From contig JADLCY010000011.1 in assembly GCA_020846935.1 (NCBI GenBank), positions 124,001 to 188,000 of the forward strand: 64,000 nucleotides of DNA. Direction: 5' to 3'. Below, piece after piece: positions 5,840 to 28,382 of the stretch. Below the pieces are notes generated by a model. The model did no database searches, had not been told where the DNA came from, and was given only the letters and a program-made list of their open reading frames with translations. The position numbers and the translations under genes are program-made. Position 1 is the first letter of the stretch; each line of letters starts with the position of its first letter. This DNA comes from Gemmatimonadaceae bacterium (GTDB lineage Bacteria > Gemmatimonadota > Gemmatimonadetes > Gemmatimonadales > Gemmatimonadaceae).

Positions 5840-6457
5840 TCAGACAACCGGATTTCGCACCGTGCTGATCCCCACGAGTTCCACCTCGACCTGATCCCCG
5901 GAACTTAGTCGCCCGACACCCGCCGGCGTGCCCGTGGCAACCAGATCTCCAGGTTCCAGGGTCATGATGTGCGAGATGAACGACAGGCAGAAGGGAATCG
6001 AAAAGACCATCTGACTGGAATTCCCACGCTGCCGCTCGGCGCCGTTCACCCGGGTGATGACCTCGATGTTGGCGAGATCGACTTCGCCGAAGAATGGCTC
6101 GCCCACCGCGCAGAACGTGTCGAATCCCTTCGCGCGCGTCCATTGCGAATCCTTGCGCTGCAGATCACGCGCGGTGATATCGTTCAGCGCCACGATCGCC
6201 CGCACCGCGCGCCGCGCCTCCGCTTCGGAGGCGTGGCGGAGCGTGGACCCGATCAGCACGGCGATCTCGCCTTCGTGCTCGACCTGCGACGACTGCGGCG
6301 GGAGAACGATCGCGTCTCCGGTGCCGATGAGGCTCGACGGCGGCTTGAGGAAGAACAGCGGCTCCGAGTCGGGGACGGCATTCCCGAGTTCCCGGGCGTG
6401 TTCGGCGTAGTTGCGGCCGATGCACACGATCTTTGACGGGCGCGGTACGAGAGGCAT
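5840..6457 (-). CDS. Fumarylacetoacetate hydrolase (FAH) family protein
   Basis: Probable cytosolic metal-dependent hydrolase, decarboxylase or isomerase of the FAH fold. It has 205 residues if translation begins at MPLVPRPSKIVCIGRNY, where the conserved domain starts; the ORF continues 45 codons upstream without similarity. Visible signatures are GRNYAEHARELG, the metal-site EHEGEIAVLIG, NDITARDLQ, KGFDTF and the C-terminal LEPGDLVATGTPAGVG. Members act on diverse 2-keto or acylpyruvate substrates (acylpyruvase, oxaloacetate decarboxylase, 2-hydroxyhepta-2,4-diene-1,7-dioate isomerase), and the neighbours give no clue to which. It lies 40 bp downstream of the DinG-like gene on the same strand. 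Confidence 0.88.
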   Translation of the reverse strand: MPLVPRPSKIVCIGRNYAEHARELGNAVPDSEPLFFLKPPSSLIGTGDAIVLPPQSSQVEHEGEIAVLIGSTLRHASEAEARRAVRAIVALNDITARDLQRKDSQWTRAKGFDTFCAVGEPFFGEVDLANIEVITRVNGAERQRGNSSQMVFSIPFCLSFISHIMTLEPGDLVATGTPAGVGRLSSGDQVEVELVGISTVRNPVV

Positions 6458-6497
6458 GGACGGGCGGTGAGCGAGTAGGCGTTTGCCAGCGAATGGT

Positions 6498-8963
6498 CTA
6501 GCGATAGAAACGTCGCACCGCGCGCTCCACATCTGCCCACGGTGCCAGGACGCGACTGGCCGGTGGGAGGCCGTCGAGGAGATCCTCACCATACCGCCGT
6601 GAGGCCACGCGCGAGTCCATCAGAAGCACCACCCCCCGATCCTCGCGCGTTCGGATCAGCCGCCCGAAGCCCTGCTTGAGGCGCAGCGCGGCGTGGGGAA
6701 GCATGTACTCCTGGAACGGGTCTCCGCCACGGGCCGAGATCGCCTCGCAATGGGCGGCGGTCAGAGGCTCGGTCGGCACACGGAACGGCAGTCGCGCGAT
6801 GACGAGGCCACGCAGCGCCTGCCCCGGCACGTCCACCCCCTCCCAGAACGTCGTGGTGCCGAACAGCACCGCATTGCCCGCCTCACGAAACCGCTGCAGG
6901 AGGATGTCGCGGGACTCCTCACCGTGCACGAGGAACGGCAGGCGTGCGCCGAGGCCGCGCTCGCGCAGAAGTCGCGCTGCCTCGCGCACGTCGCGATGGC
7001 TCGTGAACAGCGCAAACACCCCGCCACCGGAGGCGTCGGCGAGAACGGCCACGGCGTCCACCACGGCCTGAAAGTGCGCCTCGCCGTCGACGTTAGGCGC
7101 GGGCACGTCCAGCGGAACCGCGAGCAGCGACTGCGTGCGGTAGTCGAACGGCGACGCATGGGCCGCGACGTCCGGTTCGACGTCCTCCTCGGTGAGGCCG
7201 AGTCGACCGCGCATGAAGTCGAATCGGCCCTCGGTGGCAAGGGTGGCGCTCGTGACAATCGTGGTGTCGACGCGGCGAAACAGGTCCTCGCGGAGGATCG
7301 GCGCCAGGTCCAGCGGCACTGCGGTCGCCACCACGTTGCGTTCGCGACCGCGGACTTCGAGCCATCGCACCGTCTTCAGGCGCCCCGAGGGACGCAGGGT
7401 CTGACGCAGCGCGTCGGACGAGAGGTCGAGCCGCCTGGCCACGCCCTTCAGTTCGCCGAGCAGCTGGGCATTGAGGTCGATCAGCCGCTCGTCGGACTCC
7501 ATGCGTTCCCGGATCAGCCGCAGGTTGTCGCTCATCAGGGTCAGCTCACGCAACACGTCGTCGAGCGACGCCTCGAGCCCAGCGGCCCAGACGGGGTGCT
7601 CGTCGAACGCACTCGTCAGGCGCATGACGGGAGCACCGGCTTCCTGCAGCACGCCATCGAGCAGGTCGAACACCACGGCCGCCTTCTCGCGCGCCGCATT
7701 CGTCGACGGAAACAGCCTGGCGTGCACCAGGTCGAGGCTCGCGGTGCTCAGGATGTCGCGCCGCGTTCCGAGCCGCTGCGCGAGGGTCGGCAGGAGTCCG
7801 CGACCACGCCGTTCGAGCCGGGCAAACAGGCGAGTCATGCCGCGCCGCGTCACCGACGCGCCGAGGTGGCTTGCGGCGGCGTCTTCCAGGTGGTGACCCT
7901 CGTCGACCACGAGCCGCGAAAACGGGGGCAGCACGGCGGCTTCCTCCCAGTTCTGCGAGGCGCGTCGCACGGCAACGTCAGCAAGCAGCAGATGGTGGTT
8001 GACCACAACCACGTCGGCCTGGGCCGCGCGTCGACGTGCAGCAAACACGAAGCACTTGTCAAAGACCGGGCACTGCAGCCTGAGGCACAGGTCGGGCTCG
8101 GCGGCCACCTCGTCCCACACCTCCGCGCGAGGAGCGACCGGCAGATCGGCAAGTGACCCGTCACTCGTCTGCTCGGCCCACGCATGCAGGGCCTCGACCT
8201 CCGTGGTCATGCCGTCCTCAAAGAGCGTCGCCCCCGCTCCACGCGCCTGCTCGAGCCGGAGCAGACACAGGTAGTTCCGCCACCCCTTGAGCAGCGCAAA
8301 GCGCACGGGCTGGTCGGCCAGCGCCCCGGCGAGGAAGGGCAGGTCCTTGCCCACCAGCTGCTCCTGCAGCGTGATGGTGTTGGTGCTCACGATCGTGCGC
8401 TCGGCGTTGGCGGCCGCCCAGCGCAACGCCGGGATGAGGTAGCCTAACGACTTTCCGACCCCCGTTCCGGCTTCGAGCAGCCCGATCCCGCCAGAGTTGT
8501 AGAGCCTGGCGATCGCGCGGGCGTAGTCACGCTGCGTGGGCCGGTCCTCGTAGCGACCGTGGGCGACGGCGATCTCGCCCGTGGGCCCCAGGGTGCGGTC
8601 GATGGCGGAAAGGTCCAGGGGGGCGACCTTTTCCTCGCGAGGCACCTCGACCACGACATAGACATCTGTGGCGCCGTTGTCGGTGATCGCGAACCCGATC
8701 CCGTCGTCGTGCAGCCGCGCGGCGATGTCGAGGTCGGGACCCGAGGGTTCGAGCACGCCACTCGGATGGTTGTGCAGCAGCATCTCTCCGCGCTGCGCGA
8801 ACCCGGGCAGCGCGAGCACGCTCCGCACATCGCCCCGAGCCACCACCCGCGCCGCGGTGATCACGCCGTCGTCGTCCACCTTGCACACGAAGCAGACCTC
8901 GCGCCCGCCCGCGAGCTGGATCGCGGTGCGGACGGCGGCGGCGACGACAGGTGTGAGACGCAT
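6498..8963 (-). CDS. DinG/XPD-family DNA helicase with an N-terminal RadC/JAMM-like domain
   Basis: An 821-residue fusion. Residues 1-120 form a JAB/MPN-like domain with a complete JAMM zinc signature: Glu22, His64-x-His66, Ser74 and Asp77 in HNHPSGVLEPSGPD, spaced as in RadC. Residues 140-821 form a superfamily-2 XPD/DinG helicase. Walker A is EAGTGVGKS (about 164-172) and the DEAH box is VVDEGHHLE (about 352-360). Cys233, 293, 298 and 304 fit the Fe-S cluster ligands, and motif VI is QGFGRLIRT. Expected role: ATP-driven 5'-3' unwinding of DNA or R-loops, with a possible metalloprotease or nucleic-acid-related activity from the N-terminus. The start is ATG 8963, where the JAB domain begins; 56 further upstream codons have no similarity. 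A terminator (9071-9098) separates it from the gene upstream. Confidence 0.9.
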   Translation of the reverse strand: MRLTPVVAAAVRTAIQLAGGREVCFVCKVDDDGVITAARVVARGDVRSVLALPGFAQRGEMLLHNHPSGVLEPSGPDLDIAARLHDDGIGFAITDNGATDVYVVVEVPREEKVAPLDLSAIDRTLGPTGEIAVAHGRYEDRPTQRDYARAIARLYNSGGIGLLEAGTGVGKSLGYLIPALRWAAANAERTIVSTNTITLQEQLVGKDLPFLAGALADQPVRFALLKGWRNYLCLLRLEQARGAGATLFEDGMTTEVEALHAWAEQTSDGSLADLPVAPRAEVWDEVAAEPDLCLRLQCPVFDKCFVFAARRRAAQADVVVVNHHLLLADVAVRRASQNWEEAAVLPPFSRLVVDEGHHLEDAAASHLGASVTRRGMTRLFARLERRGRGLLPTLAQRLGTRRDILSTASLDLVHARLFPSTNAAREKAAVVFDLLDGVLQEAGAPVMRLTSAFDEHPVWAAGLEASLDDVLRELTLMSDNLRLIRERMESDERLIDLNAQLLGELKGVARRLDLSSDALRQTLRPSGRLKTVRWLEVRGRERNVVATAVPLDLAPILREDLFRRVDTTIVTSATLATEGRFDFMRGRLGLTEEDVEPDVAAHASPFDYRTQSLLAVPLDVPAPNVDGEAHFQAVVDAVAVLADASGGGVFALFTSHRDVREAARLLRERGLGARLPFLVHGEESRDILLQRFREAGNAVLFGTTTFWEGVDVPGQALRGLVIARLPFRVPTEPLTAAHCEAISARGGDPFQEYMLPHAALRLKQGFGRLIRTREDRGVVLLMDSRVASRRYGEDLLDGLPPASRVLAPWADVERAVRRFYR

Positions 8964-9070
8964 CTGGACGGACGGATCAGCGGAAGGACACGTCGACAGT
9001 GTGGCCTGACGAACGGGCGGACGAGGTGACGCAGGCGTATGCGGCGAACGCCTGGACGGGTGCGGGCACG

Positions 9071-9098
9071 AAAAGGGGCGTGCGTGGGCACGCCCCTT
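9071..9098 (-). terminator. Rho-independent terminator after the AsnB-like gene
   Basis: A perfect 11-bp stem (9073-9083 with 9088-9098) has a 4-nt loop. Read on the minus strand it ends in TTTT (the last two T are just outside the stem). It lies 70 bp beyond the stop of the minus-strand gene at 9168 and before dinG, so it should end that transcript. Confidence 0.8.
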
Positions 9099-9167
9099 CA
9101 TGAAAGCTAGTTCCCTGGATCGGCATTCCACCGACTGGTGTGCACCGCCCTTCCGTCGGTCCTCAGC

Positions 9168-10490
9168 TCAGGTCTTGAGCGGCTTCTTCTTGGCGGCGGG
9201 GAACAACACGTTGTTCAGGATCAACCGATATCCGGGCGAGTTCGGATGCAGCGCGAGGTCGGTCGGGGCCGCGCCGATGTTGTGTTGGGGATCCTCCGGG
9301 TCGTGGCCGCCCAGATACGTCCATGAGCCCTTGCCATAGTCGCCGTGCAGGTACTTCACCCACGGTGCGCCCTCTTCCTGCGCCAGCACCGTGACGTTCG
9401 GCTTGAGCGTGCTCTTCGAGAACGACGTCGTCACCCCGTAGAAGTCAGGGATGACGGTGCGGTGGTTCTGCACCAGCATGCTCGACACGGGATCGAACTT
9501 TGCCGAGAACGAAAACAGCGAAAACTGACCCAACGGCTGGCGACGCCCGGGCACGTTGACCTGATGCCCATCGATGTCGCTCATCGAGTTCACGAAAGGC
9601 GAGGGCTCGAGGTGCACGCCGCGGAACGCAAACGAACGCTCCCAGTCGAGCTTCTGGTCCGCATTGTCGTCCACCGGCGTATTGTCGGCAAAGCTGCCCG
9701 CGATGTCCGTCGAATGGGCCGCGATGGCCAGCGACAACGTCTCGGTGGCCCCACACATCGCAAACAGAAAGCCGCCCCGCTCCACGAACTGTCGCATCTT
9801 TTCCGCCACCGCTTTCTTCAGTGCGGGGATGTTGGGCATGCCGAGCTTGCGCGCCACGGCGAGCTGTGCCTCACGCTGTTCGATGAACCACGGCGTGTCG
9901 CGAAAGCCAAGGTACAACTTGTTGAGCTGGCCGGTGAAGTCCTCGTGATGCAGGTGGAGCCAGTCGACCTTGGAGAGGTCGCCGTTCATCAGTTCTTCGT
10001 CGTACATGGACGTGAACTCGATGCCGGCGTAGCGGAGGGCGAGAGTCACCGCGTCGTCCCACGGCGGCGACTTGAGGGGCTTGTAGATGGCGATGCGCGG
10101 TGCGCGCTCGAGCGACACCGCGTCCATGTTCGAGCCTGCGATCTGGGCCCGGATGGCCGCCACCTGCGCGGCGGCCTGCGGTTCGAACGTGATCCCGTCG
10201 AGCGTCGCGCGTTTGCGCAGTTCGGGCGTATCGGGGAGCAGGAACGAGCCGCCCCGGTAGTTGATCAACCACTCGGCCTTGTTGCCGTCACGCAGCGCGT
10301 TGAACGTGAGGCCGTAGGCCTTGAGTGCGTTGGTCTGTGCGTCGTCCATCGGCACGAGCAGTTGCTGACTGTGGGCCGGACGGCCAGCCAGCGCCAGCAG
10401 GGCAAGCAGGATGGGGACCGCGCGTCCCAAGGAACGGGACACGCGGTGGAGCGGGCGTCGAGGCTGCACGGGCAACAGGGAGAGAGTCAT
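9168..10490 (-). CDS. Secreted protein of the family often labelled 'asparagine synthetase B' (function unknown)
   Basis: 440 residues from ATG 10490, which gives an Arg-rich n-region and a hydrophobic core (VPILLALLALAG) ending AHSQQ, a good signal peptide. The mature protein opens QLLVPMDDAQTNALKAYGL. It also contains LINYRGGSFLLPD, WLHLHHEDFTGQ, GGFLFAMCGATETL, TYLGGHDPEDPQH and a C-terminal NSPGYRLILNNVLFPA. As I recall, Bacteroidota homologues carry these motifs and are deposited as asparagine synthetase B. No N-terminal nucleophile Cys, glutaminase domain or PP-loop is visible, so that name is unsupported. The GGFLFAMCG and GGHDPE context is reminiscent of a class-I amidotransferase-like fold, an inference only. 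It is likely periplasmic. A terminator follows. Confidence 0.7.
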   Translation of the reverse strand: MTLSLLPVQPRRPLHRVSRSLGRAVPILLALLALAGRPAHSQQLLVPMDDAQTNALKAYGLTFNALRDGNKAEWLINYRGGSFLLPDTPELRKRATLDGITFEPQAAAQVAAIRAQIAGSNMDAVSLERAPRIAIYKPLKSPPWDDAVTLALRYAGIEFTSMYDEELMNGDLSKVDWLHLHHEDFTGQLNKLYLGFRDTPWFIEQREAQLAVARKLGMPNIPALKKAVAEKMRQFVERGGFLFAMCGATETLSLAIAAHSTDIAGSFADNTPVDDNADQKLDWERSFAFRGVHLEPSPFVNSMSDIDGHQVNVPGRRQPLGQFSLFSFSAKFDPVSSMLVQNHRTVIPDFYGVTTSFSKSTLKPNVTVLAQEEGAPWVKYLHGDYGKGSWTYLGGHDPEDPQHNIGAAPTDLALHPNSPGYRLILNNVLFPAAKKKPLKT

Positions 10491-10507
10491 TCGGAGCGCG
10501 CACTCGG

Positions 10508-10515
10508 ATTGTATA
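10508..10515 (-). promoter_or_regulatory. Possible -10 element for the AsnB-like gene
   Basis: On the minus strand TATACAAT lies 17 nt upstream of the ATG at 10490, in the 66-bp gap after the TPR gene. It contains two overlapping good -10 matches (TATACA, TACAAT) in otherwise GC-rich DNA. I see no convincing -35. The 5' leader would be only about 10 nt. Confidence 0.35.
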
Positions 10516-10556
10516 CCACAGCGCGACCGTGCGACGGACCACGCCATGCATTGGAG

Positions 10557-27671: not shown

Positions 27672-28382
27672 TCAGCCCAGCTCGAGCTGCTCGTTCTGAG
27701 TGACGGGTGGCGACGCCGGCTCGAGCAGTCCCGCGTCGTCCTCATCGGCCTTGTTCACGCGCGGTGAGATCGTCCACGCCTTCATCAGCTCGGACGGAAA
27801 CGCGCGGACGAACTCGGCGACGCCGGGATCCGGCGTGCGCGGGTCGAGCCAGGTGAGGTAACGGTCGGCCGGAATGATCACCGGCATCCGATCGTGGATC
27901 GGCGCGAGGAGCGCGTTGGGCGCGGTCGTCAGGATGGCGAACGTGGCGAGGCCCTCTCCCCCGTCCTTCGGTCGCCAGAAGTCCCAGAGTCCGCCGAGCG
28001 CGAACGGTTCGCCGGACCCGAGCCCGATCGCCCATGGCTGCTTGCGCCTGGAGCCGGGAACGGCCTGCCATTCGTAGAACACATCGGCCGGAATGAGGCA
28101 GCGGCGGAGGCGCATCGAATCCCGGAACGCTGGCTTGGTGAACGCGTTGTCGGCGCGCGCGTTGGCCATGCGGGCGCCAACGGCGGGGCTTTGCGCCCAC
28201 CACGGCACCAGGCCCCAGCGGAGCATCCCGGCGTCGCGCTCACCTTTGCGCTCGCGCACGACGAGTGCGGGGGTCCCGGGCGCGATGTTGAATCGAGGCC
28301 GTATGCCCTCGGGGAGCCCGACGATCCCGAAGCGTTCGAGTTTGAGCTTGTCGGGCCGCGAGAGGCCGAATCGACCGCACAT
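27672..28382 (-). CDS. SOS response-associated peptidase (SRAP/YedK/HMCES family)
   Basis: 236 residues from the ATG at 28382, giving MCGRF, the obligatory catalytic Cys2. Forms a thiazolidine crosslink to abasic sites in single-stranded DNA. Visible residues are RPRFNIAPGT, LRWGLVPWWA, MANARADN (catalytic Asn), CLIPADVFYEW (catalytic Glu) and APIHDRMPVI (catalytic His). The ORF continues about 133 codons upstream through a repeat-rich region that is not protein-like. It faces ychF across a 148-bp gap that shows no gene. Confidence 0.95.
   Translation of the reverse strand: MCGRFGLSRPDKLKLERFGIVGLPEGIRPRFNIAPGTPALVVRERKGERDAGMLRWGLVPWWAQSPAVGARMANARADNAFTKPAFRDSMRLRRCLIPADVFYEWQAVPGSRRKQPWAIGLGSGEPFALGGLWDFWRPKDGGEGLATFAILTTAPNALLAPIHDRMPVIIPADRYLTWLDPRTPDPGVAEFVRAFPSELMKAWTISPRVNKADEDDAGLLEPASPPVTQNEQLELG

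Follow-up and report, generated by a model that had tools for sequence, protein, structure and literature searches.

RadC is a widespread and puzzling protein. Its JAB domain has been found fused to DinG/RAD3-like helicases, where it occupies the place of the nucleases of other DinG relatives; a role in nucleic acid processing was proposed for these fusions, and RadC-type JAB domains were considered unlikely to possess the groove for a ubiquitin tail (Iyer et al. 2017, PMC5512222). In a classification of DinG proteins into ten subgroups, “RadC-like DinG” is one of them, with the same glutamate, histidine, histidine, and aspartate residues as described below, a Zn2+ modelled into the site, metalloproteases and no nucleases as DALI matches of the RadC-like domain, and no HolC in the hosts (Cheng 2025, PMC11981726). 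With respect to the motor, YoaA-chi, an Fe-S helicase with 5'-3' polarity, is able to unwind forks as well as damaged DNA (PMC9826845). In animals, FANCJ translocates into a crosslinked protein and unfolds it, which enables its cleavage by SPRTN (PMC12279946).

The window analyzed here is a stretch of 64,000 nucleotides from a Gemmatimonadaceae bacterium (contig JADLCY010000011.1, positions 124,001 to 188,000). As judged by sequence, one of its genes is a member of the published RadC-like DinG subgroup. Compared with the representative from Desulfuromonas soudanensis, which has the same N-terminal domain with the E/H/H/D residues, the motor, the Fe-S domain, and a HolC-free host, nothing essential differs; here, the protein was found to be widespread in Gemmatimonadota, and cases of a decayed or lost JAMM site could be traced. 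A term search of the main text of PMC11981726 returned no gemmatimonad taxa by name. The architecture itself has already been published, and new here is comparative evidence for a probably catalytic JAMM site.

Gene and domain architecture

The RadC-like DinG gene is located at positions 6498 to 8963 on the minus strand and encodes 821 amino acids, with an ATG start codon at 8963 and the stop codon at 6498-6500. Re-reading of the open reading frame gave exactly the coordinates, strand, and residue numbers of the initial annotation, which had described a JAB/JAMM domain fused to a DinG/XPD helicase. An in-frame GTG at 9131 is a possible alternative start that would add 56 N-terminal residues, but the ATG at 8963 is preferred because homology to relatives begins at about residue 3 of the protein starting there. 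A start downstream of the JAB region was rejected: the region is translated and under selection, with a dN/dS of about 0.08 (0.096/1.255) compared to about 0.12 for the helicase against one close relative, and 231 of the 297 genomes sampled in the phylum have the N-terminal domain.

Residues 1-108 (8640-8963, minus strand) were assigned to a RadC-type JAB/JAMM domain by Pfam, AF2, Foldseek, and VIA. The Pfam RadC model (PF04002, cut-off 22.1 bits) matched the whole protein with 22.4 bits and the N-terminus alone with 28.4 bits (E 1.7e-6), and each of 41 diverse homologues matched this model individually. A profile of these 41 homologues retrieved RadC (PDB 2qlc) with an E value of 2.9e-8 and, weakly, archaeal AfJAMM (E 0.05). 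The AF2 model of the domain (mean pLDDT 91.7, pTM 0.82) has a JAB fold. Foldseek ranked RadC 2qlc first (E 1.9e-5), followed by matches that included CSN5, AfJAMM, Rpn11, and BRCC36, and VIA-align gave Z scores of 8 to 11 with BubCD, Rpn11, and PfJAMM1 over about 100 residues. Alignment by hhalign with a canonical RadC profile, built from nine RadC sequences of the phylum, had a probability of 97.4% (E 1.3e-11) and paired E22 with the conserved glutamate of RadC. The full-length RadC models were not reached (NF000642, 20 bits with a cut-off of 180; TIGR00608, 15 bits with a cut-off of 133.85), so the relation to RadC concerns the JAB domain only. RadC (UPF0758; PF04002, PDB 2qlc) shares the JAB fold, the motif HNHPSGxxxPSxxD, and a conserved upstream glutamate with the window protein, which, unlike RadC, is fused to a helicase, has no HhH N-terminal region, and coexists with a canonical RadC.

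That RadC and not a ubiquitin peptidase is the top match of both fold and profile agrees with the main and serious rival of the explanation preferred below. The JAMM domain may be a nuclease or another nucleic-acid-processing hydrolase, which would trim the strand exposed by the helicase, comparable to DnaQ of ExoDinG or the nuclease of EndoDinG. This reading has published backing (Iyer et al. 2017, PMC5512222), and the JAB domain does reside at the N-terminus, where other DinG subgroups have their nuclease (Cheng 2025, PMC11981726). The catalytic set of E, HxH, S, and D is nevertheless that of JAMM peptidases, the solved relatives of known activity among the Foldseek and VIA matches are mostly peptidases or deconjugases, and no nucleases came up in the published DALI search with the RadC-like domain (PMC11981726). 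A nuclease is rather unlikely.

A variable linker of residues 109-138 (8550-8639, minus strand), with a dN of 0.58-0.61 compared to 0.10-0.12 in the JAB domain, connects to a DinG/YoaA-type SF2 helicase of the XPD family (residues 139-821; 6501-8549, minus strand), as assigned by NCBIfam and Foldseek. The best NCBIfam model for this part was YoaA with 546 bits, which is below the cut-off of 680, and PRK08074 matched with 442 bits. The helicase domain is thus common to E. coli YoaA, while the window protein scores below the YoaA cut-off, has a JAB domain, and comes from a genome without HolC. The full-length AF2 model (pLDDT 89.6, pTM 0.83) was best matched in Foldseek by E. coli DinG with single-stranded DNA (6fwr, E 3.7e-41). 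All motor motifs are on the minus strand: Walker A GTGVGKS (residues 166-172, 8448-8468), the Fe-S cysteines C233 (8265-8267; cysteine in 33 and serine in 8 of 41 homologues) and C293, C298, and C304 (8052-8087; C298 and C304 in 41/41, C293 in 36/41), and DEGH as a DEAH-type Walker B (residues 354-357, 7893-7904), in which D354 and E355 are invariant and H357 is present in 40 of 41. RadC-like DinG is characterized by an Fe-S domain with four (or three) cysteines and by a glutamate, two histidines, and an aspartate in the RadC-like domain; the window protein has the four cysteines together with E22, H64, H66, and D77.

DinG from Bacillus and Staphylococcus (ExoDinG) also has an enzymatic domain in front of its DinG motor, which is a DnaQ-type exonuclease there and a JAMM domain here; the Pfam search gave no exonuclease match at the N-terminus, where RadC was found. 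With regard to CasDinG of type IV CRISPR systems, the PADLOC typeIV_DinG models match the motor, and its conserved neighborhood in the phylum consists of housekeeping-type genes. Phages of Listeria, Bacillus, and the gut encode DinG-like helicases with 28-38% identity to the motor, with the JAB region outside the matches (H1-H8 listed).

Conservation of the JAMM site

The perfect JAMM spacing noticed earlier holds, as E22, H64, H66, S74, and D77 fit HxHx10D and NHPSG is as in RadC. Among 41 diverse members from many phyla, the sole invariant columns of the JAB domain were E22 (8898-8900, minus strand, as for the following positions), G44, H64-N-H66-P-S-G69 (8757-8774), S74 (8742-8744), and D77 (8733-8735), with some of them partly invariant by construction because the members from the contig scan had been selected on N-H-P-x-G. 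No such selection applied to E22, G44, H64, S74, and D77, and the members from the phylum were found by similarity of the whole domain. H64, H66, and D77 are the three predicted metal ligands and E22 the predicted general base. Some relatives have HNHPDG, HNHPGG, or HNHPTG instead of HNHPSG, so S68 is not absolute.

Both modules are under purifying selection, with JAMM and ATPase motifs intact and the Fe-S ligands mostly so. In close pairs with a dS of about 1, dN was 0.10-0.12 for the JAB domain, 0.16 for the motor, and about 0.6 for the linker, which puts the JAB domain under the same constraint as the motor, its dN/dS being at least as low. From these comparisons of sequences, the JAMM site should bind metal and be catalytically active in nearly all members, and catalysis at this site is very probable.

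Distribution and inheritance

The fusion had been regarded as an unusual architecture of uncertain distribution, and it turns out to be both common and previously described. The N-terminal domain was present in 76 of 99 genomes of the window's family and, across the phylum, in the 231 genomes mentioned above, which represent 89 of 117 genera; nearly all phylum matches listed had an open frame that could accommodate the fusion. When genome contigs were scanned for HNHPSG ... AGTGxGK, spaced as in the fusion, this motif pair turned up in at least 118 stretches. An in-frame fusion was present at each of the 80 loci inspected, in about ten groups, a number that is approximate because labels of MAGs can be wrong. 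By record title, these were Gemmatimonadota, Geobacter and Desulfuromonadales, Treponema and other Spirochaetota, KSB1, Calditrichota, Planctomycetes, Myxococcota, Halanaerobium, Psychrilyobacter, Bacillota, and Acidimicrobiia. In shuffled versions of the window, the expected number of occurrences of this motif pair was 0.00, which, together with the presence in the phylum and the invariant JAMM columns in the 41 members, excludes a chance origin of the fusion.

A FastTree phylogeny of the motors (85 fused and 6 unfused, midpoint root, no outgroup) placed the window's phylum, the spirochaetes, the Desulfuromonadales, and a KSB1/Calditrichota group as in mainly vertical descent. Identities of the JAB domain and the motor co-varied (r = 0.82 over 3570 pairs), with means of 40% and 42%, respectively. 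Judged from these data, RadC-like DinG is a chromosomal, mainly vertically inherited protein with an old and wide co-inheritance of both modules. A mobile or viral origin was rejected: a plasmid search gave no match to the JAB part, and the phage matches listed start at query residue 110 or later.

Decay and loss of the JAB domain

The JAMM site was decayed in four sequences that belong to two lineages of one related family and still have a recognizable motor. Written as the E22 position, H64-x-H66, and the D77 position, genome G185 reads K/HSR/E, and in genus g84, G169 reads R/LSQ/E and G179 and G342 both read S/ISH/E. In every case E22 was replaced by K, S, or R and D77 by E, accompanied by loss of H64 and H66 in one copy, of H66 only in one, and of H64 only in two. 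The motor tree indicates two independent decays. The genomes are small for the group, with about 2.0 Mb for the three of g84 and 1.8 Mb for G185. A clade within the window's own family (genera g5, g18, and g30) has lost the JAB domain but kept the motor, as have G118 and G143. Since the JAMM site is either kept complete or abandoned, it behaves as an active site would, and the two lineages in which a decayed JAB scaffold persists show that the fold can outlast the site.

In JAMM enzymes, the glutamate acts as general base instead of binding the metal. This touches on the alternative that the JAB domain is now mainly structural, as a scaffold, a docking site for a partner, or a stand-in for HolC, and that folding around a structural metal is the reason why its catalytic residues persist. 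Retention of the motor gene without the JAB domain in several lineages would agree with this, as would the absence of HolC from all 30 genomes tested, which was likewise noted by Cheng (PMC11981726). Such a role is quite improbable, however, considering that E22 is invariant in 41 of 41 members and replaced whenever the metal ligands are, and that two lineages kept the scaffold after the site had decayed.

On the same DinG motor, G143 (L280) carries an unrelated, apparently helical and charged N-terminal segment in place of the JAB domain. G187 and G373 (L283 and L284), which are relatives of the decayed G185, have HNHPGG and HNHPDG with the glutamate, both histidines, and the aspartate intact, possibly as a first step of decay.

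Invariance, selection, and coordinated decay provide comparative evidence that points to a catalytic JAMM site and falls short of proof. The decayed and domain-less lineages can serve as natural controls for the function of this site.

Genomic context

The same genome encodes a canonical RadC (C6:258377-258736) and a shorter RadC-like gene (C8:346614-346976, 159-aa open frame), so that three RadC-type JAB domains exist overall. Due to the coexistence with canonical RadC, a function of the fusion as a stand-in for RadC was rejected. HolC, the partner of YoaA, was absent from 30 of 30 genomes, and the controls in E. coli and Caulobacter were found.

The Pup ligase was likewise missing from every one of 30 genomes examined, of which 20 belong to the window's phylum and 10 to other groups. 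This argues against the JAMM domain stripping a ubiquitin-like tag (Ubl, Pup, or UBact) off proteins bound to DNA in the manner of BRCC36, Rpn11, or PfJAMM1, whose fold and catalytic residues it shares. Neighboring genes, read by eye, contained no linked E1, E2, or Ubl gene among the most frequent recurrent ones, and RadC-type JAB domains have been argued to lack the ubiquitin-tail groove (PMC5512222). Tag removal is highly unlikely. A tag-removing peptidase and a scaffold are both less likely than action on protein adducts or a nuclease.

Within the phylum, the window region 5840-10547 and its counterparts in relatives are syntenic, with a gene for a DUF4159-like secreted protein, RadC-like DinG, a fumarylacetoacetate-hydrolase-like gene, and an aminotransferase gene; the fumarylacetoacetate hydrolase and aminotransferase genes are downstream, and those for the DUF4159-like protein and a TPR protein upstream, with gene names assigned by eye from sequence. 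Recurrent neighbors were found almost only in the window's phylum, and no partner gene was convincingly conserved across phyla. A self-contained function is favored because a cross-phylum partner gene, the Pup ligase, and HolC were all missing. The search for known LexA-box consensus sequences in 106 upstream regions was negative; as it covered the published box types only, SOS control is possible.

The window also contains a gene for an SRAP protein of the YedK/HMCES type (27750-28382, minus strand; C11:151750-152382). SRAP is a protein that forms DNA adducts. Its presence did not track an intact JAB domain, being found in some genomes and missing in others whatever the state of this domain. 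LexA box, SRAP, Pup ligase, and neighborhood gave no support for any specific pathway.

Possible function of RadC-like DinG

RadC-like DinG would combine, in a single chain, an N-terminal RadC-type JAMM metallohydrolase with a C-terminal Fe-S helicase of the DinG/YoaA type that translocates on single-stranded DNA. The motor may load onto single-stranded DNA and move in the 5'-3' direction like its relatives, carrying the JAMM site to obstacles. If such an obstacle were a DNA-protein adduct or a tightly bound protein, the motor would push into it and partly unfold it, and the JAMM site would clip it. One polypeptide would thereby have the combined role of the XPD-family helicase FANCJ and the metalloprotease SPRTN of animals. 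In DNA-protein crosslink repair, an XPD-family Fe-S helicase is likewise paired with a metalloprotease, although these are separate proteins and SPRTN is not a JAMM enzyme, so that the comparison is an analogy only, with proteases that are not homologous.

A helicase-hydrolase acting on obstacles on single-stranded DNA, most plausibly protein adducts, is the best explanation overall and a real possibility, if still short of probable. That the substrate is a protein attached to DNA is a guess from this analogy and a tentative one. Of the earlier proposal, a metal-dependent step coupled to helicase action is the best reading, whereas a specificity for R-loops or forks found no support. Action on adducts has to be weighed against the groove and nuclease-position arguments of Iyer et al., the dispensability of the JAB domain in several lineages that keep the motor, the SRAP gene not tracking the JAB domain, and the negative upstream search for published LexA boxes. 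A self-contained machine for the repair of DNA-protein adducts, with the RadC family as DNA-tethered peptidases, is unlikely.

If it should be true, this would be a first biochemical role for the RadC family, as DNA-tethered peptidases, and if protein is cut, bacteria would have a one-chain counterpart of FANCJ-SPRTN. With a RadC catalytic domain attached, in many phyla, to a helicase whose biochemistry is known, the question of the RadC function becomes experimentally approachable.
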